This document shows positions 15,048 to 28,924 of a stretch of 64,000 nt of DNA, one piece after another; the first letter of the stretch is position 1, and every line of letters begins with the position of its first letter. Source of the stretch: Bimuria novae-zelandiae CBS 107.79 (lineage: Eukaryota; Ascomycota; Dothideomycetes; Pleosporales; Didymosphaeriaceae). The position numbers were made by a program, and so were the translations under genes. The stretch is taken from the NCBI GenBank assembly GCA_010015655.1, contig ML976688.1:249865-313864 (forward strand). Reading direction: 5' to 3'. The notes beneath the pieces are model-generated. The model made no database searches. It saw nothing but the letters and a program-made list of their open reading frames with translations, and was not told where the DNA came from.

Positions 15048-17037
15048 GCTTTATTAAAAATAAGGCTATATAACTACCTAAAATTAATATTATTATAAGT
15101 TTTTTTATAGGGTAGTAAGTTAATAGCTATAATTTATTTGCACTATTTAAATCTATTTAGAAGCTTGACGTTGCGGCCGCTACGCATAGATTTAGTTAGG
15201 GTAGCAAATGCGTCCTCTAAGGCCTCTCTAATATCTATAGTATCTACACCACGTTTCTGACGCTTCCTGCTATATATAGATGGCTAAGAGGCCTTTTTCT
15301 TACCCTTTTAGGATACTTATAGAGCTTTTTCAGCGTCGCGGGCAGACTTCTACGCAGCGCGCTAAGCTGCCTTTTTAGCCCTCTCCTTCTCCTTCGCCTT
15401 CTTAGCTACCTCTTGCGCAGCACGCTTTTCCTACTATATTTTCTCCTTATATTGCTTAGCTACCTTCTTTAGCTCTACTATTTTTATTTTTTAAAGCTAC
15501 TACTACTTATTCTCTTACTTTTTAATAAATTAATAATAACGTACTTCCCTTACTTTCTTTAGTAATTATAAGATAGCTTTACTATAATACTCTTAGCGCT
15601 ATTAAAAGTCTAAAGCTTTACCCTTCTTTTTATACTTCTTTTTAATAGATAGTGCCTGCCTAAGCCTATTATTATCATGCTTAGGTAGCTTATTTTTAAT
15701 AAATAGATAGTAGAGTAATTAATAAAGCCATTTTATATCTTAACTACCTTATTCTTTACTCCTAATTATATAAGCCTATTTATCTTTCTTTAATTATATT
15801 TACTAAGCCCTAATAAGGAGCTATTGCATAATTCGTAGTTTTAGGTAAACTTATTAAAGATAAAATTAGGATTAGGTAGTAATATACCTATAGCTCTAAA
15901 AAAAAGCTAAAAATAAATAATTTCTTAAAGGAGGCCTTTTATATATTTTAAAGTAAGGGGAAGAAGTCGCCTTAAGTAATAAAAGTTAGGCCTTAGCTTT
16001 TATAAAGGTATTTTAATAGCTCTACTAAGTAGGCTATTAATAGAGGCTTAAATATTATAACGTTAAGTAGCTAAAGTATATAAGTTAAATAAAAAGGTAG
16101 AATAGCAAGTAGGATCTTATTTTAATTATAATAATTAATAAAGTTTATAGTAATATAGGAGCTATAGCTATTTATAATTAAAAGGTAATATAATTATTAA
16201 GCCTTCTCTTTTGTATAGTAATTAGATACTTACTTAAGCTAGGCAAGTCTAATATCGTTATTTATCTAGTTAGAGGATAATAAGGTAATAAAGAATTTAT
16301 AATATTCTGCCTTAATATCCTCTACCTAGCTTAATTAGATGCCCTTGTTAATAGTCTTATAAATAAGACTTAGCAATAGAGCTAATCTATTAGTATAAAT
16401 ATATACTAGGAGCGTAATCTATACGCGATTACTATCTTAAAGTAATACCCTAACCTCCTTTTTCTCTTATATTTGTTTACTAAATATCCTCTTTAATTTA
16501 CTAATAATACTAATTAGAACGCCTTTTTCATCTATATTATAAACATAATAAGGATCTATACGATATTAATCTATCTTACTATATAAAAGGTTAAAATAAA
16601 GGCGATATTTATCCTCTAAATTAGCTTTATAGTAATTACTATCTATACTAACTATCTATTACAAGATAAGATAAATACTATATTAGTTAATAAAATAAAT
16701 AACCTAGCGCTTGCTGACAGACTCCTTTGCTATTATTAAGGCAAAGTTCCGTATTATCTCTCTAGTAGGAGGTATATGTCTCTTTATAAGTTTTTTAATA
16801 TATTATATAAGCTCTTGCTCTTGCTATAGGGTAAGCTTTTGCTAGCTAGAGTTCTTAACTTGTGTAGGATACATTATTCCTCGATACCTTTAGATTAATT
16901 TAGACTGTATAACACTATATTTAGCAGTAGTTTTTATATATAAGAAAGTTTTGCCTAGCTTTAGTAATTTAATATTATTAATTATAGCTTAAATTAGATC
17001 TATATTAGTGGAGTTGTCACGTGTTAAAGTTAAGGGT

Positions 17038-17077
17038 GTTTTGGTGTTGCCCGCGCATCACGCGCACGGACACGTTA
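17038..17077. repeat. Right terminal inverted repeat of the Fot1/pogo element
   Basis: GTTTTGGTGTTGCCCGCGCA followed by TCACGCGCACGGACACGTTA. Its reverse complement matches the left end at 14,990 with a few transitions. It lies only five bases from the separate 32-bp inverted repeat at 17,083. Confidence 0.8.
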
Positions 17078-17082
17078 TTGTC

Positions 17083-17114
17083 GTTTCGTAAATTCCCGCT
17101 CACCATGTGACCTG
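17083..17114. repeat. Left copy of a 32-bp perfect inverted repeat
   Basis: GTTTCGTAAATTCCCGCTCA and the next 12 bases are the exact reverse complement of 26,568-26,599. Weaker matching continues inward to about 17,160, with differences mainly of the RIP transition type. This behaves like a transposon end. Confidence 0.85.
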
Positions 17115-17149
17115 CCCCACATGTTAGTAATTAATTCTCGTACGTCATT

Positions 17150-18250
17150 TAAAACACGGATTTACTAGCTAAATATTAACCTTTTAATGCATTTAAAGAA
17201 TCTATAAGTACTCTATAAGGTTACTAAATAAAGCTAGGTTGCCGCCAACAGTATTACAGGCCGTAATTAATTATTTTAAGGACAATATTAGCGTTACAAA
17301 AATTTAGAGAGACACTAAAGTAGCCTACTTGACGATTAGGAGGATTTAACTTAGCCTGGAGTACTGGGGGCAGCCTTACCCGCCAGCCTGCGTACGGCGG
17401 GGGCGGCCGCCGTTGCTACTGCAGTACCATCGCGAGAAGCTTAAAGAGTTGCTGCAGGGCCGGCCAAATACCTACCTGGATGAAATGCAGGCTTTCTTAT
17501 ATGACGATTATAACGTAAAAGCCTTATAAACAACTATCTGGGAGACCCTCGCCAGCATGAGGTAGAGTCGAAAAGCGGCAACTAAAGTGGTAGCTGAGCG
17601 TAATGTAGTCCTCCGTCGAGCGTTTCGAGCTCGCTGCCAGCTGGCGTATAAGGCGGAGCAGGTGATAGTACTTAACAAGAGCGCTTGTAACAAGCGTACA
17701 GGCAATTATAAGTATATTTAGTTAGAGGTAAATACGCTAGTTTAAGTATTATACTTAGCGTAGAGATTAGAGAGGTAGAGCTTGCTACCAGCTATAAACG
17801 TTAATAGGTATTTTAATTACCTTATCTATTAAGGAGCAATTACGGCAGAGCTAATAAAGGAGTTTATAGTTAGTAAAGTGCTACTATATTGCACGCCGTA
17901 CCTAAGGCCACGCTTAGTAATTATAATAGATAACGCTTTTATTTATTAATTAGCTAGAATTTAATAGCTTTGTTTAGACGCTAGAGTAGTACTCGAGTAC
18001 CTATTGCCGTACTTACCTAACATAAATCTAATCGAGCAGAGCTTTAAGGCGTTAAAGTTATAAATAAAAAAGAACCTCAAGCAGGCGCCTATTTTTTAGA
18101 ATTTCTTATATTTTTTAGAGTTGGGCGTGCAGGAGGTTTGCTACAACGACGTACAGGCGAGAAAGTACTTCAGCCACTTAGGCTGGCAGGTGTAAGGTGT
18201 ATAGGAGATAGAGAGCTTAAGCGATTAACGCGTTATTATTAAGTGTAAAT
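17150..18250 (+). mobile_element. Tc1/mariner (DDE_3) transposase fossil
   Basis: Plus-strand transposase of the Tc1/mariner type. A GC-rich linker at 17,370-17,480 is well preserved ('VRRGRPPLL'), then 'NTYLDEMQAFLYDDYNVKAL', 'AERNVVLRRAFRARC' near 17,600 and 'VIVLNKSACNKRTGNYKY' near 17,660-17,720. In relatives the Asn of 'LNKSACN' is the first catalytic Asp. Later come 'YCTPYLRPRLVIIIDNAFIY' near 17,890 and 'VLEYLPYLPNINLIEQSF' near 17,990. The Glu of that last block is expected about 34 residues after the second Asp. Several stops make it non-functional. The preserved patch lacks CA/TG steps, which explains why RIP spared it. Confidence 0.85.
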
Positions 18251-18547
18251 ATTATTAAGTATTATAATAGTAGCCTATGCGGACTTAGTGTTTACTAGGG
18301 TTAAGTTATTTATATTACAGTTCTACATAATTCTATTAATAAGTTAATTTAATATACGTATACTTAGGTAATAACTTCCTTAAAATTAACTTTTACAGGC
18401 TAGAATTAGCAAAATAAGAAAAAACACCACAACAGCGAGAATCTTAATTCCTGGAATTAACGCGAAATTCTAGCTGCAAACACCTCCCCTGATCGCCAAT
18501 TAAATAGCCAGCACCCAGGCGCAGGAGCCCACTGCGACTAAGGCGCC

Positions 18548-20080
18548 ATGGCGACGCAATGGCCTCAACAGGCAACGTGGCCGTCCCCAATAAACGAGCA
18601 CGCTACACGCCTCAGCACCTACCTTTAGGATTCACTATCCTGCATCGAACGCACTAACAGCCAGCCTGTACCCGCTAACCTTGTAAAGACTATTATCTAT
18701 AGAACGGTGACATTTATCCTAAAAGTGTAGCACACCCCCGATCTCAGCGCGGTAAGCGATGCCCTGAGAATCCTCTAGACGAAAGCAAAAGCTGCGGCAA
18801 ACGAGAACGCACAGATACTTAGCGACATTAAAAATAAACTCAAGAGTAGTACCGAAGCCATCCGACAGTCCACTACAGCTATGCAACAGAACACCAATAC
18901 AGGCGAGGAAGCGAGGGTAGCCGCGAAGGAAGCATCGGAGACTAGCAAGGCAGTCCTGGAAATAATAAGGGAGATTAAGACCAAGGGGATGCAGAATTAG
19001 GCAAATGGACCGATGACCTATGCTGCGATGGCAGCCAGAGGCCAGACACTAGCAGGCACATATAATACACAGAGTCCCAAGGGCCCGTCCGCACAAGCAC
19101 AACGTGAGGTCATCGTGAATATCAGAGACTCATTCACTGTACAGAGCCTGCGGGCTATGAACCCCCGCAATCTGAAAGCCCATGTAGAGCGAGCCATCGA
19201 ACAAAGCGGAAACGAAAATATTATACGTATCAAGATCATATCATCCAACCAGCTAAAGAGCGGAGACCTTAGCATAAAGACAGCTAACAGCACAAAAGTA
19301 GAAGCACTACAGCAATTCGCAGATAATTAGGTCCACCGCATCAGCGCACAGGCAATAGTACAGATCCCGACGTATAGCGTAATTGTACACGGAATTCGCA
19401 CCAGCACGCTCGACATAGATAAGCTTAAAGAAAACAGAACCTAGATCCTATAAGACAATAAACCGTTCATCCCGCGGGCCGAGATCAAACACATTAAATA
19501 GCTAACTAGGGACGCGCCCACTAAAGCAGCATCGTTTATTACTATCAAGTTTACTAAGGCCAAAGACGCTAACAAGATTATAGACAAGGGCTTAGTCTAG
19601 TAGAGCGAGGTCTTCTAGTGCGAACGATACGAGAGACAGTGCCGACTAAAGCAGTGCTACAAGTGCCAAAGATACGGCCACATAGGAACCCAGTGCAAGG
19701 CAGCAACAGTATGTGGCTATTATGCGCAGGAGCACGACACTAGGGAGTGCCCTTCGAAATCCAAACAGGACACAACGAAGAAATGTGCGCTCTGCCGAGG
19801 AGAATACGAAGCATGGAACCGCCAGTGCCTGGCAAGGAAGGCTGAAACCGCCAAGATAAAGATCGCCTACAACACTCGACCCCGTTACTACCCGGTACTA
19901 GAACCAACCGGAGGAATTACGCAAGGAGGAGGCATGCCGGAAGCCCGCCAAAGGACTAGGACGAACGGAGCCACAGCAAGCCAAGATAACCAGAGCGACA
20001 GGACCCGCTCTCTGTCACGGAGAGGACAAAAGCAAACGAATACGGGAAACGTAGTTAACTTAAGAGACAGAGAGAATTAA
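18548..20080 (+). pseudogene. LINE ORF1 (gag-like, three zinc knuckles), broken by stops
   Basis: From ATG at 18,548 to TAA at 20,078 the frame is continuous for 510 codons if TAG stops are ignored. The N-terminal third is a helical Glu/Lys/Ala-rich region, then a conserved 'GPMTYAAMAARGQ' segment at about 19,010. The C-terminal part has three Cys/His knuckles: 'CYKCQRYGHIGTQC' near 19,660, 'CGYYAQEHDTREC' near 19,710 and 'CALCRGEYEAWNRQC' near 19,788. ORF1 proteins of Tad/I-type LINEs bind the element RNA and chaperone it. Most stops stand where Trp or Gln is expected (for example 'LV**SEVF*CE' at about 19,590-19,620), the RIP signature. The open pieces are fragments of one dead ORF. Confidence 0.85.
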
Positions 20081-20217
20081 TAGATAGGAGATAAGAATAG
20101 CTATAGACCTTAGAGGACAATCGTCCCCTCGAGGAGGGCACTAGAAGCTATCGAAAGCAACACGCGAGCGATACAATGGCACGATTAATAGATAGATATT
20201 GACGAAAATAATAAATT

Positions 20218-23200
20218 ATGAATTACAGAACCACGATAAGTATACTACAGTACAACGTCCGCAAATTAAAAGACATGGTAATGGCATCGCTGCTGCGCGA
20301 CCCAAAAACCCACGAATACGACATCATTGCTATACAGGAACCGTGGAGGAACCCATTCATGGCAACGACACACTATCTGGCCAAGGGCGTGTTTGACCTA
20401 TACTGCCCAGGAGGAACCAAGGATGGACCGACAAGAGTGTGCTTCTTCGTAAACAGGCGGATAGACGTTAGCAGAGTCTAGTTTAAGGAACATACACGAG
20501 ACTTATGCTCCGTAACGCTAAAGCTAGAAGGAGAAAAGCAACTTAACATTTATAACGCGTATAATCCCCTGAGGTACATATCTTAGCAGAGCGTCCTACT
20601 ACACGTTCGCGAATCACTGGATAAACACGACGGTGACGAGCTTATCTTATTAGGCGACTTCAACCTACACTATCCACTCTGGGGAGGCCCAGGCCTGCAG
20701 ACTGTAGAACCAGAAGCAGAGGATCTAATCACGATCATAGAGGAGTTCGCCCTGTACGCAACACTGGCCCCTGGCACGATAACCTATAGAGAGAGGCAAC
20801 TACAAAGCTCTATCGACCTATGTCTTGTAACAGCGGGGCTTGTTGAGCGAGTTATAAAGAGCGAGGTAGACGAAGAACTCGACCACGACTTAGACTACCT
20901 ACTGATAACCACGATCCTAGACATAGCGGCACCGAATGCAAATACAGCACCCAGGAGGAATTGGAAGAAACTGGACGGAGAAGCATACACCAAAGCACTA
21001 AAAGAAGCTCTGCCGCCGCTCCGAAGACCCGCAACCAAAACCGCATTAGACCGATATATAGAGGAAGTGGTCTTAGCAGTCTAGAGAGCAATAGAGAAGG
21101 CCGTCCTGCAGACGCAAGTCTCGGCTAAAAGCAGAGAAGGGTGGAATAACGAGTGCAGAGAGATCTTAGCAGAGACGAAGCGGCTTAAGAGGGTACACAA
21201 CTAGCTTCACACGGAAGAGACATGGGAAGCCTACCGGGTAGTACGAAACCACAAAGCTAGGACCATTAAGAAGGCGCTACGGGATAAGCATAGGGAACAA
21301 GTGGAGACGGTGGCTAAGTTACTAGAGGGACTATGGAAGATAGCAAAATGGGCAAGAACAAGAGAGATGCAATCTATAAAAGCTACACCTATAATCTAAC
21401 ACCTGGAGACCTAATGCGAAATCACAGAGCTAAGTAACAAGGTAGAAATATTTAAGGACGTCTTTTTCCCTGCGCCCCTGGAAGCAAACCTAGAAGACGT
21501 ACGCGACGCAGAGTACAGCAGTTAGATTAAACTACCACTAATAACCGAAAAAGAGATAGAGGATGCCATCCGCGCAGCTTCCCCTATTAAAGGCCCTGGA
21601 CCCAACAAGATCACGAACAAGGCCCTCCAAGCAGGGAGGGCCTAACTTATAGTATATATGCTAAAAATCTTTAACTAGAGCATATAGCTAGGCTATTACC
21701 TGGCCTATTTCCGGGGGTCGCTTACAGCGGTGCTACGCAAACCAGGGAAAGATAACTATACGAAATTAAAAGCATACTGGCCGATCGCGCTACTTAATAC
21801 TATAGGAAAGATCATGGACGCGATTATCTCCCAGCGACTGAACTATTTGGTAGAAACATACCAGCTACTCCCACTAATACACATAGGAGGGAGAAAGAAG
21901 CGATCCACAGAGCACGCACTATACGCCGTCACGGAGAAGATTTACGGAGCATGGAACCAAAAGAAAACACATGTGGCCAGCCTCCTGCTACTCGACGTAT
22001 CTGGCGCATTCGACAATGTATCACACGCGCGGTTGCTACACAACCTGCGGAAGAGAAAGATCAACAAGACAACTATTAGATAGATTGCAAGCTTCCTTAG
22101 CGATAGATACACGCGTATTAGGATTAACGGGTTTACATTGTTATAGTACGCGACAAGCACAGGCATACCCTAAGGCTTTCCGCTGTTGCCTATCTTCTAC
22201 TTATTCTATAATGCTGACCTTATAGAACTATGCAAGCAAGAAGCGAACATTCTTTCGATAGGGTATATAGACGACATAGCAATCTTGGCTTGGGCAGAAA
22301 CGACAGAGAAGACGTGCGATATCCTAGGCAAGACTCTATAAAAGGCACAGCAATAGGCAAACACGCATGCTTCTATCTTCGCTCTAGACAAGTTCCAGCT
22401 TACACACTTCACGAGGGCACGCAAAAAGATCATATAAACCACCCGATCTAGACCATCTGGGGCGAGATTAAACTAAGGCCGAACTGTAAATATCTAGGGC
22501 TAACGATGGACGCTAAACTTACATGAAAGCCACACATTAAAGAGATTAGACAAAAAGCAATAAAAACAGTGAACGCGTTAAGCAATCTTAGAAACTTAAC
22601 ATGGGGCGCCGGCCTCCTAGATCTTAGAAAAATCTACGAGGGCACCGCGCTGCCCCAGATGATATACGCCTGCTTAATATAGATAAACGAGAATGGCAAG
22701 AAGCACACCTATACTAAGAAAGCACTCGACACTCTGTAGAGCATCTAGGCAAGAGCGGCACGAATTATCTATGGGGCGTTTAAAGCTACATCAAGGGCCG
22801 CACTTGACATCGAAGCCTTCCTCCTCCCTATCAAGCAACAAATATGGAGACACAATGCAGACACAATCACCCGGCTTCTATCCAGTAGACCTATCGCAAA
22901 CATCGTGGGTTTCCGGCCCACTAACGCCGCCCAAATAACCGAACGCAAGAAGCATACAGGCTCCTGGCAGAGGATCTACAGCGAGATAAGAGATAAGTGG
23001 GGACAGGACCTTATAACGCAGGAGCCAATTCCCCCGTTCATTACACCCCCCTGGCAACAGGGACCAAAGACCTACATAGAAAAAGATGACGAGACAGCAA
23101 GGGAGCGACATAATAGAGAGACTGCGACGGACCAAGACCTTAGCATCTACACAGACGGAAGCGGAATAGACAATAGAATCGGTGCTGCAGCAGTATGCCT

Positions 23201-24053
23201 ATACACACAGTAGACGTGCAGCGCTTATCTTGGATTGCCCACGACGTCCACAGTATACGCAGCTAAACTGTACGGAATAAGCCTGGCACTGCAGATAGCG
23301 CAGGAGTACGCAGATCGGAACGGAAGCAGGCGCAACGTCGCCATCTACACAGGCAACCAGGCCGCTATATGGTCTGTCACCAAGGCCGAAGGATGGACAG
23401 GAGCCTACATTCTGGAGGAGATTGCCCGCCAAATCCAGGACCTCCAGGACCAAGGACGTCCGGTACGGATTCGATAGGTACCAGCCCACGAAGGGATCCT
23501 AGGCAACGAAGCAGCAGACATAGCTACAAAGGAAGCTATAGAATGGAGAGAGAATGGCAGAAGAGCGCCAACTGCAGGCGAGCCCTTAAAACTCTTTCCC
23601 CTTAAGACCACACTGAAAAGAAGATGTAAGTAGCAAGCGGAGACCACATAGAGCGCAAAGTGGCAGAAGGAGACAAAAGGCCAAGCCACGTTCAGGAACA
23701 CACGGTCACCAACAAACAGAGTACTTAAACTACATAAAGGCCTTAAAAAGCGAGACAGCGCTCTTCTCGTCTAACTAAGGACTAAGAAGATCGGACTGAG
23801 AGACTTCCTCTTCAGCCACAAAGTGCCAGACATAACTAACTCTAGATGCGACTGCGGAGCGATCAGATAAACAGTGGCCCATGTTCTGCTCTACTGCAGG
23901 ATGCATAAGGACCTCCGGAACCGGATCTTCGGCGACCGCCCAGGACGACACAACCTCCAGACCATCCTTAATAAGCCACAACTAGCCACCAAAGCTATCG
24001 AGTATATGGAACAGACGCAGATCCTTGGGCAAATCGGGATCGCAGACGCGTAG
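20218..24053 (+). pseudogene. LINE ORF2 (endonuclease, reverse transcriptase, RNase H), broken
   Basis: Begins at ATG 20,218 with an apurinic-type endonuclease ('ISILQYNVRKLKD', 'DIIAIQEPW', 'LLGDFNLHYPLWGG' near 20,660). The reverse transcriptase has 'SPIKGPGPNKITNKAL' near 21,585, 'LLLLDVSGAFDNVSH' near 21,985 and an intact catalytic box 'YIDDIAIL' near 22,262. A frameshift near 22,430 moves the frame. RNase H follows at 23,140-23,530 ('IYTDGSGIDN', 'VPAHEGILGNEAAD'), then a C-terminal Cys/His segment near 23,840-23,900. In RNase H the expected catalytic Glu is Lys ('YAAKLYGI') and the next catalytic Asp is Gly ('IYTGNQAA'), so that domain would be inactive even without stops. Many stops sit at Trp/Gln positions. 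Confidence 0.85.
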
Positions 24054-24385
24054 ATGAAGCCGAGCGCTGGGGGGAGACTGTAGGTATACGGACGCGACAC
24101 ACGAGGTGCAAAACCTCTACGAAGCCTAGAAAGTGGTTTGCATTAGTATTAGAACCGGTATCTAGATGGGCCCGCCAGCATATTTAGATAGTGGTTGAGG
24201 AAAGAAAGGCAGGTCTCTGGGGACAGCTGGTCTTGTTTTTACAGGATGAAGCGGGGCGGAGCGGGTCAGCAATGATCCGGGACGCGTCGGCTGTCCGCCA
24301 AGCCTTGCCAGCCGGGCATAGCTGCGGAGAAATCGCGGCTGAAACCGAGTAGGAATCAATTAATCAATTAATTATTAGTAAAATA

Positions 24386-25289
24386 AAGAACGTAAATTCC
24401 TTAATAAAAGTACTTATAACGCGCCCTATGTCTAAGAGTAATTAATAATATAACTAAAGCGTAAAGTATAAGTAACTATAAAATTAACGTTAGCAACCTA
24501 GCCTTAAACTTTAGTAACTTTTTATATTTACTATATAAATAAGCTCTTCTTGCCCTTATCCTTGTCCTCTTGCTCCTCTCGCTCCTTACGCTCCTTACGC
24601 TCTTTACGCTCTATACGCTTTTTCTTCTTCTTTATATTCTTTAGGCACTAAGCTTTTTGCTCTAAAATTAGTTCTTTAAATCTACACTACTAGCGGATGG
24701 TATTGTCCGATTACATGGCCCTTTGCACACGCAAAGGTAGCTGGCGCAACCCTACACAAAGAAACCTTGCCAGCAGTCTGGTTCATCCGCACAATTCCGG
24801 GCGGGACAAAGGGTAACTCTCCTTAATCAACGGAAATAGATTAGCGTATTAGTGTAAGACGTAAGGATATAAGAGCCTTACATTCTTACAGAGAAAAAAA
24901 AAACAACACTTTATACCACAATTTATCTTAATTAATCACTATCTTTTCATCTTATCAGATTACCCCTCCAATCTGACAGGTATATACTCGAAGTTTAAGT
25001 AGTAGAGGTAGTAGTAGCTCTTACACCTTTTACTATAAGATATATGGCATGCTAGCCTCTAAGGGATCTATAAGTATATTAAGGTTAATTCTATTATCCT
25101 TAATTATAGTAAAGACTTTTCTTATATCTTTACGATCTTTGTGTAGACCCTCGTTAAGCTACTACTATAGGAAAAGTAGTGTTATATAATAAAGCTCCTC
25201 TACGTTACTGTAAGTTAATAGATCCTACGTTAAAACTAGTAAGTTATTTAGTAAGCGATTAGGCTCTTGCTGCTAGGCAGGCAATTATT
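24386..25289. other. AT-rich sequence between LINE tail and Cys-motif fossil
   Basis: Mostly RIP-type AT-rich DNA with no recognised gene. On the minus strand 24,540-24,650 reads as a run of charged Lys/Arg/Glu residues ('RIERKERKERKEREEQEDKD'), similar in composition to the C-terminal tails of pogo transposases. A GC-richer patch lies at 24,690-24,830, and a 10-base A run at about 24,894-24,903. Confidence 0.4.
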
Positions 25290-26440
25290 AAAATAGCTAA
25301 CTTTATACTAATTAACTTACTATAAACGCGATTAGTAATTTAAATATGTCTTTTATCGTAGGCTTGTTGTTAGAGTCGCTCCTCCTCCGCCGTCGCCCAG
25401 CCTGCTCACGAGACCTCGCTATCATTAACCAAACGTTGTCTGACGGCGCTGCAACTGTACACCTTTACAGCGACACCTCGCGGGCCCATATGGCGACTAT
25501 ATTGCCCTCGACGGGCATATGATCGGAGAATCGCACCACCAACGATTTAGTACGCTAAAAGTAGTATACATGGGCGTAGTTTGAGCACATGGTGTCCTGG
25601 CACCTCCACGCGTCCCGTATTTAAATGGCTGGCCTATTGCCCATCTAATTAATCGCTATAACGTCTAGCAGCTTAGCGAGTTAGCAATTAGTAATAGTAA
25701 GTTATACCTAAAAGCCTTGCAGGCTACCTACGCGTAACTAACTTAAAATAAGCACTTAAGGTAACTTTAGCAGCAGCACTAAGTTAAAATCTATATACGT
25801 AGTGGCCTCTAAGGGCGCTAATTATAGTAACTCTTTTACGCTAGTTTTTACGTTAGTAAAATATAGGTAACTTTCCCCGCGTTTAAGAGCGTTTGCTATA
25901 CAATTCTTTACTAAAATTTAACTTAAATATATAATAATAGTAAGGCTTTTAATAGAGACTTTCTCCTAGGTGCTTATCTCTATAATAATGCTATTAGCCT
26001 ATCTCTACACCTCGCTCGCTATTAGGCTGCTAAGTAGTTACTTATAGTTACTATCCTCTACGCTATTAACTATCTTATTATTATAGTACGCTCTATAGCG
26101 ACACCTTATATAAGTTTTATTAACTACCTTAATAAGCTCTTTATCTAATTATTATATAAAAGGACTTAGCTAGGCTAATAATAGACTATCCTTTAGGTAT
26201 ATCTTTTACTTCTTAACGTCCTTATCCTTAAGTTGCTCTGCCTTAGCTACCTTAGTAGTAGTTATATAATTAGCTTTATTTACTATTTCTTGTAAAGGTG
26301 CCCTAGCCTTTGCTTTTTTAAAAGTCTTTTTACAAGATAACTTTATTATACGCGACTTTTTGGCTACCCGCGTTACCTAAGGTAGATTCTTACCCCCCTT
26401 AAATACTTAAGTACTCTTACGTTTATAACTTTTAGCTAGC
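25290..26440 (-). pseudogene. Unrecognised fossil ORF with Cys motif
   Basis: A minus-strand frame can be followed across many TAG/TAA stops from a basic N-terminus ('MLAKSYKRKS' near 26,435) to a GC-richer C-terminal part at 25,370-25,650. That part contains 'DAWRCQDTMCSNYAHVYYF', then 'VVRFSDHMPVEGNIVAIWAR'. The CxxxxC...C-like pattern followed by a Trp-Ala block resembles short Cys-rich segments I associate with other fungal repeats, but I cannot name the family. It lies just inside the 26,568-26,599 inverted repeat and points inward, opposite to the Tc1 transposase. It may be the second gene of the same element. Confidence 0.4.
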
Positions 26441-26567
26441 ATTATAATAACCCTTAAGAATAATAACAGGATATTGTTTAGGGGATAAATTCATGTACGG
26501 CATCTAATTGTACAGAAAAATAGGTGGGGTCAAATGACGCGCAGGAAGCGATTACCTAACAAGCGCC

Positions 26568-26599
26568 CAGGTCACATGGTGAGCGGGAATTTACGAAAC
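26568..26599. repeat. Right copy of the 32-bp perfect inverted repeat
   Basis: CAGGTCACATGGTGAGCGGG and the next 12 bases are the exact reverse complement of 17,083-17,114. Inward matching extends to about 26,520. It also marks the outer edge of the AT-rich block: beyond about 26,600 the base composition becomes that of ordinary genes. Confidence 0.85.
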
Positions 26600-26887
26600 C
26601 ACCGATAGCTCTTTCACAACGTTGCCGAAGCGAAACGCAGCACTGCTCTCCAGGTACGTACCCTCACTTGCCGTACAAGTTACTTCGTCGGTCACAGGTT
26701 CTCAGGAGCTCCATCTCCATGCAGCTCAACCCCGGTCGATTGATAAACCCCATTCTACCACCCGCGTCGCAGGCAATTCTGGAATCCACACTGTCTTCGC
26801 GAATATGGACATTTGAGATCTCCGTGACATACTGCCAGCCTCTTTGCCACCTATCAGCGGCTGAAACATTGGAGCTTTCATGGAATT

Positions 26888-28924
26888 ATGTCTCGACCAC
26901 TCAACCAGTCTGACCTAATCTTTCCCACGCAAGCTCTTTCCATCTCTTCGACCCTGACATCCTTGAAGCGCTCCGCGCTGTCCACTCACAACCGGCTCTC
27001 TTCAATTAAGTCCGATGCCGAGTTTGTGGCATCAGTATCGGAAGCGTTTGGACTACCGCTGGTAGCCAATGAGCGATGCGGTAGCTGGTACATTCCACCG
27101 GAGAAAAAGGCAGAGAGTGTATACTTCAAAAGCACTGACGGGCACACTAATGAATGGAAGTTTAGTCTTCGAAGATTAAACTTACAGCTTCTAGATCTGG
27201 TCGGGAACCGAGGAGGATGTGTGATCGTAGATTCCACAAGGCGAGGCAAGAGCATGCCAGACGCGCTCTCTAAGACGGTCCCGATCTGGTGCTGTGTGAT
27301 TAATCACGCCCTGTTCGCAGACACGGAAGCACACAGGCTTCACACACAACCACAGGCCGTGTCAGCATCAGAACATGCTCAGATAGAGAACCGGATAAAG
27401 GGCTTCGTGTGCGACTTTTTGGACATTTGCAAGCCGGACGTAGGGCTCCTGCGTAGCAAAATCGACAAACCACTGCGACCGATCTGGGTAACTCAAAAAT
27501 CAAGCTTACCAGAGCAGCCTCCATTCTTCTCGGAGTTTCATCCAGTCATCTTGTGTACGGCTTCACGACGCGTGAACGGTGCCGAAGGTTCAGAAGGCGG
27601 GTACGTCCAAGGCGCTGCCGACGACCACGAAGCCTGGTCTAAAGGTCTCCTGCCCACCCTTTTCTGGAGCAACATGGACCAGCTACTCAACACGAAAGAG
27701 GAAGATCTACCAGGTCTGATAGCACAATTGATTAGAGACGAGAACCGCCCCGCCGCCACCCCCATCCTTATCAAGCCAACATCCAACCTGTACATATCTT
27801 CCAGCCAGGATATGGACATCTCGCACTTCGACGTAATAATCAATTGCGGACCTAAGCCTCTACCCGGACAAGTCACAGAACCACCTAAACCACAAGGACA
27901 AAAACATCACCTCTGGCTCGAGTGCCAGACCGGTAAGAATGGCTCGCGAAACCTTCGCGACCAGCTATGGCGACTGCGCATACTGGAAGATTGGCTAGGT
28001 CCCGAACCTACCGCGGCCAAGATCCTGGTCTGTGACCCCACTGGTAAGGATCTAGCTGTAGGTGTAGTCCTCGCCATCCTTAGCAACTACTCTTCGCCTG
28101 AAGGTGTCCTCGCTTTTAGCTCCAGATTTGACGACGACACAAAAATCGCTCTCCGACCTCAGCCAGATAAGAGGCTCATCAAAGAGAGACTTTCATGGAT
28201 CACCACTACACATCCGACGTTGAGCCCACCCAGAGAGACGCTGAAGTCTGTGAACGCGTATTTGATGTCGACCAACGGAGAACAGGCTAGACAGAACCAA
28301 AAGTATAAATCCCATGAAGGGGATTCGTCGAACGATCGAATACTTACCTTTGGGGCTCGAAAGCCGGCAAAGGCGACAACACATCTCCCACCAGACACCC
28401 ATGCCCGAATCTTCACGGCGCTCCGGAACAAAGGGAGGCCGTGGAAGTTATCCCGTCAACTGACGTCGAAGCTCGAAAGCCATCCATCTGGCACTGTCCA
28501 AGGGACCGCGACATTCACGCTGCTTAAGACAGATCCTCCAACGCTCCTGTATGCTGAAGAAGGCGAGTTCGAAACAACCACTGGATTACGCTTCACTGTT
28601 CGGCGGAAATATATATACATCTTGAGACAAGAGGACGACTCCAGCCACATATCTGTATACTTCTCCGAAGAAGGCAAGGACGTGGGCGCTCTGTTCGTCG
28701 AAATGGGGGACCTGGCGGCGCTAGGGGATGCGAGTTCAACACTGACCGCTCAGAATAAGGAGCAGCATCTTTGCGGCCAGGATCTCTACAGTGCGAGCTG
28801 GCGTTTCTCGCAGGCCATGTTACAGGAGCGAAGTCAGTGGGGAGAGCTTCGATCGTATTGGATGCTAAGGTACGACGTCAAGGGACCGAAGAAGGACTAC
28901 GTCAGCGAGACGACGTATACCTGA
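26888..28924 (+). CDS. RIT1: tRNA A64-2'-O-ribosylphosphate transferase (Rit1) with an extra C-terminal domain
   Basis: Single-exon gene of 678 residues. Rit1 adds a phosphoribosyl group to the 2'-OH of A64 in initiator tRNA-Met, which keeps that tRNA out of elongation. The start 'MSRPLNQSDLIFP' is the usual family N-terminus. Family blocks are 'CGSWYIPPE' (64-72), 'YFKSTDGHTNEWKFSLRRLN' (79-98), 'GGCVIVDSTRRGKSMPDALS' (109-128), and 'PIWCCVINH' (132-140). A phosphatase-like loop 'VCDPTGKDLAVG' (381-392) belongs to the Rit1 DUSP-like domain, which ends near residue 460. Residues 505-678 are additional and read like a separate beta-rich domain ('RPWKLSRQL', 'TFTLLKTDPPTLLYAEEGEF', 'HLCGQDLYSASWRFS', 'DVKGPKKDYV'). 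These resemble the fungal/bacterial DUF6314 family by memory. Yeast Rit1 is about 510 residues, so a fusion is likely. The ATG is 288 bp from the transposon block. Confidence 0.9.
   Translation: MSRPLNQSDLIFPTQALSISSTLTSLKRSALSTHNRLSSIKSDAEFVASVSEAFGLPLVANERCGSWYIPPEKKAESVYFKSTDGHTNEWKFSLRRLNLQLLDLVGNRGGCVIVDSTRRGKSMPDALSKTVPIWCCVINHALFADTEAHRLHTQPQAVSASEHAQIENRIKGFVCDFLDICKPDVGLLRSKIDKPLRPIWVTQKSSLPEQPPFFSEFHPVILCTASRRVNGAEGSEGGYVQGAADDHEAWSKGLLPTLFWSNMDQLLNTKEEDLPGLIAQLIRDENRPAATPILIKPTSNLYISSSQDMDISHFDVIINCGPKPLPGQVTEPPKPQGQKHHLWLECQTGKNGSRNLRDQLWRLRILEDWLGPEPTAAKILVCDPTGKDLAVGVVLAILSNYSSPEGVLAFSSRFDDDTKIALRPQPDKRLIKERLSWITTTHPTLSPPRETLKSVNAYLMSTNGEQARQNQKYKSHEGDSSNDRILTFGARKPAKATTHLPPDTHARIFTALRNKGRPWKLSRQLTSKLESHPSGTVQGTATFTLLKTDPPTLLYAEEGEFETTTGLRFTVRRKYIYILRQEDDSSHISVYFSEEGKDVGALFVEMGDLAALGDASSTLTAQNKEQHLCGQDLYSASWRFSQAMLQERSQWGELRSYWMLRYDVKGPKKDYVSETTYT

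Follow-up and report, generated by a model that had tools for sequence, protein, structure and literature searches.

A RIP-inactivated Tc1/mariner-type element with two convergent genes and nested insertions in Bimuria novae-zelandiae

RESULTS

Anatomy of the element

The subject of this study is a 9.5-kb segment of the genome of Bimuria novae-zelandiae CBS 107.79 (77.4 Mb in 191 contigs), bracketed by an inverted repeat and lying in a 64,000-nucleotide stretch that we call the window (C33:249865-313864). Two gene fossils point inward from its ends, a transposase on the left and, on the right, an open reading frame (ORF) with a Cys/His motif, here named ORF2; between them sit a long interspersed nuclear element (LINE) and a second, short insert (Table 1). 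Together the 9.5 kb make up a single Tc1/mariner-type element in which a LINE of ~6 kb and a 275-bp insert are nested. We have very little doubt that it is a copy, killed by repeat-induced point mutation (RIP), of a 3.28-kb two-gene Tc1/mariner element.

The perfect 32-bp inverted repeat at 17,083-17,114 and 26,568-26,599, from which the initial annotation of this DNA had started, is present, and is the sole inverted pair of at least 18 nt (seed 12) within 16,500-27,200 (10.7 kb). Inverted 20-mer matches number 26, versus none in 50 first-order Markov resamples, and the repeat is far beyond chance. Its imperfect continuation inward is also real (a BLAST alignment of 72 columns at 80.6% identity, the 32-bp repeat included), but the differences in the ~44 bp just inside the perfect part comprise 7 transitions, 8 transversions and 3 gaps, and are not mostly the C/T and G/A changes that had been described. 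Most of these differences, transversions among them, recur in the copy L065, so that they largely reflect a built-in asymmetry of the left and right ends and not RIP damage. The repeat does bracket the element, yet the true ends lie 5-6 bp further out: other copies read TA-TTGTCGTTTCG...CGAAACCACCGA-TA, which places the window element at 17,078-26,605, with TA on both sides. We take these limits because in 30 left-end loci the similarity to the window starts at, or no more than ~20 bp before, the TA preceding TTGTCGTTTCGTAAATTCCC (L021 has a small variant there).

Table 1. Coordinates of the element and its nested insertions in the window
Feature	Position	Strand	Evidence
Left TA target-site duplication	17076..17077		same position in other copies, different flanks
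Left terminal inverted repeat (TTGTCGTTTCGTAAATTCCCGCTCACCATGTGACCTG)	17078..17114	+	17,083-17,114 is the perfect match to the right end
Tc1-like DDE_3 transposase fossil, 322 amino acids matched	17227..18192	+	Pfam DDE_3 E=1.4e-8; 7 TAG and 7 TAA inside; D2-34-E spacing
LINE target-site duplication, left copy, 12 bp (TTAGCAAAATAA)	18406..18417		empty site in L065; BLAST alignments of other copies skip from 18417 to 24374
Nested LINE; endonuclease and reverse transcriptase in one frame (20,218-22,419)	18418..24373	+	Pfam, RIP indices, absence from six compact copies
LINE target-site duplication, right copy, 12 bp (TTAGTAAAATAA)	24374..24385		empty site in L065
ORF2 C-terminal K/R/E-rich tail and inter-gene region, severed from the body by the 275-bp insert	24386..24698	-	frame runs on into the tail in L061, L064, L065, L066
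Second nested insert, 275 bp, TGTC...GACA ends	24704..24978		5-bp GGTAT flanks at 24,699-24,703 and 24,979-24,983; missing from six compact copies
ORF2 body fossil, ~486 codons	24984..26442	-	stop counts by frame, other copies
ORF2 Cys/His motif C-x4-C-x6-C ... RF-x2-H	25519..25602	-	third Cys is Tyr in the window copy
Right terminal inverted repeat (inward TCGGTGGTTTCGTAAATTCCCGCTCACCATGTGACCTG)	26568..26605	-	repeat search, right-end query, other copies
Right TA target-site duplication	26606..26607		right-end query, other copies

The two convergent genes

The inward-pointing transposase proposed for the left end is there, its DDE_3 match surviving 14 stops, and the left gene is that of a Tc1-type transposase. 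The first catalytic D reads N in the window copy. A related locus, L083, has an uninterrupted transposase frame of 349 amino acids that matches DDE_3 (PF13358) at 1e-29, with catalytic residues D176, D261 and E296; the 34 residues from the second D to the E are the same spacing as in the window. An N-terminal helix-turn-helix region is present in this frame (HTH_33, 26.6 bits with a cut-off of 25; HTH_32 falls below its cut-off). The frames of L083 (on C32, the query itself) and L087 (on C4) are both free of stops and 99% identical to each other; this related family may therefore have moved recently.

The Cys-motif ORF that the initial annotation had seen at the right end is likewise present and convergent with the transposase. 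Its frame, read from the right TA (24,981-26,607), holds 37 stops, versus 59 and 61 in the other two, and is shared by other copies, with a frameshift near the start in L062. Inspected by eye, ORF2 has a basic N-terminus resembling a nuclear localization signal, a C-C-C-H motif and a charged tail rich in K, R and E. Searches for homologues with RIP-damaged sequences gave no match. The 438-amino acid open frame of the diverged locus L082 gave five, and an alignment of those five gave six, one of them already known, each search scoring the best ~8,000 candidates. These homologues, known here as proteins alone, come from Paraphaeosphaeria sporulosa, P. minitans, Karstenula rhodostoma, Pyrenophora tritici-repentis (P0008) and metagenomes. 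The Cys/His motif is found in P0001 and P0003-P0008; the region that would hold it is absent from P0002, P0009 and P0010. A search of viral contigs with P0007 gave nothing informative.

The Pyrenophora homologue P0008, annotated as an ordinary multi-domain protein, has an extra charged C-terminal tail (residues ~575-747). This tail may resemble those of Fot1/pogo transposases, and is possibly a fusion or a nested gene model.

Copies without the LINE

An 87-bp query from the left end gave 40 matches (the best 40 of 117 candidates scored), and a 138-bp query from the right end produced 40 long matches plus a 17-bp one (the best 40 of 141 candidates scored). Within 20 kb, 18 pairs of the scored ends (40 left, 40 right) are arranged as in the element, and no pair is arranged otherwise. 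Six compact pairs were fetched (L061-L066), and all six carry both genes between matching ends that have a TA to the left and to the right; their flanks differ, and the LINE is missing from all of them. Four of them span 3,281, 3,283, 3,283 and 3,301 bp, and the other two, which have small inserts, 3,549 and 3,674 bp. The LINE-free copies with a TA duplication that the initial annotation had suggested looking for thus exist, and its inference of a single element stands. From the window copy alone, one might still suppose that a Tc1 relic and the fossil of an unrelated gene, independent of each other, lie by chance between matching repeats; the six compact copies, with both genes inside the same ends, and the end pairs ordered 18 to none rule out such a juxtaposition, to which we give hardly any weight. 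A short transposase-only element of ~1.3 kb was also considered and rejected: no second end was seen within ~1.4 kb inside the 30 left-end loci (that of the window among them), many of which are broken by other inserts, so that the test has a limited reach. Nor was ORF2 found with unrelated ends in any of 15 further elements whose sequence was read.

In the compact copies the similarity to the window jumps from 18,417 to 24,374, across the LINE, and from ~24,700 to ~24,980, across the 275-bp insert. Taking 5,968 bp and 280 bp from 9,532 bp leaves 3,284 bp, in line with the compact copies; the LINE-free length had been put at ~3.5 kb, and is 3.28 kb because the second insert is present as well. 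The LINE matches RVT_1 (2.8e-20) and Exo_endo_phos_2 (2.4e-13), while a Pfam search with two other stretches of it found no match. It likewise carries many stops, but it is mostly less affected by RIP (indices of -0.40 to 0.81, versus 0.70 to 1.71 in the flanking parts of the element), and so probably arrived later than its host element, as had been argued. The 275-bp insert, flanked by its 5-bp duplication, appears to be a young short element; a near-identical insert (98.9% match) lies at L018:397-671.

Pairing of ORF2 with the transposase across the genome

Transposase loci were collected from three lists, with the best 120 of 421, 124 of 370 and 143 of 347 candidates scored, and merged by hand into 177 distinct loci. 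ORF2 loci came in the same way from the best 150 of 244, 96 of 254 and 75 of 298 candidates scored, giving 184 distinct loci. A convergent ORF2 lies within 3 kb of 146 of the 177 listed transposase loci and within 700 bp of 135 (median gap 521 bp), and listed neighbours within 3 kb in other orientations are few (4 same-strand, 4 divergent). At eight more loci the convergent partner stands 3-10 kb from the transposase, which is also the case in the LINE-carrying window. For the remaining 23, whose partner is more than 10 kb away or which stand alone, a further ORF2 query, made outside the orientation controls, added 4 partners within 450 bp and one at ~5 kb. The number of listed transposase loci with an ORF2 converging on them from within 3 kb thereby rises to at least 150 of 177, which bears out the suspicion that the two genes travel together.

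The same layout is found in all five fetched loci of a subfamily, B. The transposase side of these loci shows 81-83% identity and their ORF2 side 88-89%; the left end of L071 has no match over its outermost 31 bp. Two subfamily-B copies on different contigs, L046 and L047, have the same right flank, so the five loci are not all independent, and the flanking stretch, being common to two contigs, is itself repeated or duplicated.

Four far more diverged loci (L082-L085) were chosen among the listed ORF2 loci, three on account of their low number of stops. All four carry both genes in convergent orientation, with transposases 49-53% and ORF2 29-34% identical to those of the window family. Each lies inside its own terminal inverted repeats, with spans of 3,290, 3,290 and 3,498 bp, and 4,467 bp for L084, and a TA can be read beside each end, as judged from the occupied sites. 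Differences between families are most numerous at codon position 3 and fewest at position 2 in both genes; for ORF2 the values are 0.42/0.33/0.58 between L082 and L085 and 0.39/0.38/0.58 between L082 and L084, although RIP damage disturbs such counts. The ORF2 pattern, like that of the transposase, fits constraint at the protein level.

The frequency of the pair and its presence in diverged loci show ORF2 to be a long-standing gene of this lineage rather than a recent passenger; its recent capture is ruled out by the pairing in diverged families together with the genome-wide pair counts. An older capture, in which ORF2 began as a host gene and merely hitchhikes (transduplication), is the reading that the available part of the 2013 Pyrenophora paper gives to a Tc1/Mariner family with two coding regions (PMC3538342), and the annotation of P0008 also speaks for it. 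We nevertheless find it unlikely for the present element, since the pairing is old and persists at the identities just given, ORF2 homologues occur in several genera, and no clear single-copy host gene was noticed, leaving aside the 28 of 184 listed ORF2 loci without a listed transposase within 20 kb. Maintenance of the pair through such long divergence suggests a contribution of the second protein to the movement or survival of the element.

A TATCGGTG end with a subterminal motif (TTAGGTAAGCGC in L085, and similar in L065) is found next to the transposase in L085 but next to ORF2 in L065 and L082. With this end switching sides, one family seems to have its coding core inverted with respect to the ends.

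Surroundings of the window copy

The left flank of the window element (16,000-16,422) recurs near two other copies, L016 and L024 (74% and 67% identity), which places the element in repeat DNA older than itself. Its right end is at the border of the AT-rich and GC-balanced parts of the window, ~280 bp upstream (with window 26,607-26,888 between) of a long open frame for a Rit1-like tRNA ribosyltransferase (PF17184 and PF04179, with a DUF6314 end). An Rfam scan of the window gave nothing informative.

DISCUSSION

Role of ORF2

Tc1/mariner transposases are cut-and-paste enzymes that act at TA. From this, and from the TA duplications seen, the transposase of the present element would cut and paste it at TA. 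ORF2, judged by eye, may be nuclear and bind zinc, and may serve as an accessory protein that attaches to the element ends or to the transposase and raises transposase activity, as do second proteins in other two-component DNA transposons. Three considerations lead to an accessory role: ORF2 is kept with the transposase, its appearance is that of a zinc-binding nuclear protein, and a second protein is part of some other DNA transposons. The best overall explanation of the locus is probably a RIP-killed two-gene Tc1/mariner element with ORF2 as an accessory factor; the specific part of a cofactor in transposition we put forward tentatively.

Several observations weigh against this explanation. 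The pair counts come from best-scored lists of longer candidate sets, copied by hand, and 18 of the 177 listed transposase loci have no listed convergent ORF2 within 10 kb. Three of the partnerless loci (C3:619138, C74:118060 and C72:227127) have stop-free transposase frames; near that on C74, in L091, lies the N-terminal half of an ORF2, pointing towards the transposase. No copy with both genes uninterrupted is among those read or listed. Between the near-identical L082 and L083, ORF2 differs by 0.018/0.011/0.018 at the three codon positions, without third-position excess, the differences being few. The ORF2 family has no match at or above a cut-off in Pfam (some lie below) or NCBIfam, and a sequence search of the PDB found no believable match of solved structure. 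AlphaFold2 models of ORF2 are poor (mean predicted local distance difference test scores of 45 and 54), and Foldseek found no match to them at E<=0.001.

Two other functions for ORF2 deserve mention. VANC proteins of the Arabidopsis VANDAL elements are anti-silencing factors, and ORF2 might similarly act against silencing or RIP of its element, as would suit a protein of nuclear and zinc-binding appearance in elements that the host mutates heavily, in RIP-like fashion. We doubt this, as nothing tested points there, and any such protection fails in the long run, given that most listed copies carry many stops. Negative self-regulators are known in other transposons as well, and ORF2 could limit the copy number of its own element; nothing specific favours this, and the copy number is high (at least 40 left and at least 40 right ends, from 117 and 141 candidates), which does not suggest strong limitation. 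Of the functions considered we find it the least credible. In place of these we retain the accessory factor. Its strongest form, that a Pleosporales Tc1/mariner lineage is an obligate two-component system in which a C-C-C-H protein family has co-diverged with the transposase and is required for transposition or shields the element from RIP and silencing, is conceivable, though we hold it with less conviction than the cofactor role itself.

Precedents

The present element has in common with the Tc1 branch (DD34E) of the Tc1/mariner superfamily the TA duplication, the terminal inverted repeats, the DDE_3 transposase and the 34 residues from the second D to the E. It differs from a typical member, whose single ORF is typical and not essential, in its 3.28 kb and two convergent genes. 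Harbinger elements have a Myb-like partner protein, and PIF/Harbinger elements make a 3-bp target-site duplication and have their own transposase family; the present element has a 2-bp TA and a DDE_3 match.

What we take from the literature refers to the available portions of the papers cited. They give the superfamily as 1.3-2.4 kb long with a single ORF, and fungal families as ~1.8-2.3 kb (PMC4188875, PMC3441728). Ciliate TBE and Tec elements are Tc1/mariner elements with extra ORFs, of which one in TBE encodes a zinc finger protein (PMC7325037); they have three ORFs and ciliate hosts, as against two genes here, and are likened by description, not by ORF2 sequence. KolobokP has a transposase and a second gene on the complementary strand (PMC9587614). 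PIF/Harbinger and Kolobok thus share with the present element a transposase plus a second protein, but have other transposase families and other target sites.

The nearest precedent for a two-gene element, and a partial one, is that of Manning et al. (2013), who reported in Pyrenophora tritici-repentis a Tc1/Mariner family with two coding regions, one ORF being 'sequestered' between the terminal inverted repeats (PMC3538342). That family has 46 members, 31 of them nearly identical with both coding regions full length, and transcripts; similar coding sequences stand in tandem in an Alternaria alternata bacterial artificial chromosome (PMC3538342). The sequestered ORF was recognised by a coiled-coil domain, was read as a capture, and was named for these species only (PMC3538342). 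The likeness lies in the two coding regions and the Tc1/Mariner terminal inverted repeats, the ORFs being compared by description only; PF08946 is not among the Pfam matches of P0008 up to E=10. As the ORF2 homologue P0008 comes from the same species, the Pyrenophora family is probably of the same lineage. The element is therefore not wholly 'undescribed', as the initial annotation had it: a two-coding-region family was reported in 2013, but with the second ORF read as captured. The literature searched, with subscription journals and Repbase outside that search, yielded no account of ORF2 as a gene inherited within a Tc1/mariner lineage; the accessible portions of PMC3017866 and PMC9594970 do not settle the question.

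Tc1/mariner elements are regarded as transposons that get by with a single gene. A fungal lineage that keeps a second gene through deep divergence is a testable case of a one-protein system turned into a two-protein one. It could name a protein family now annotated as hypothetical proteins, and could shift the reading of the two-ORF elements of Pyrenophora and Alternaria from the capture of an ORF to an inherited transposon gene.

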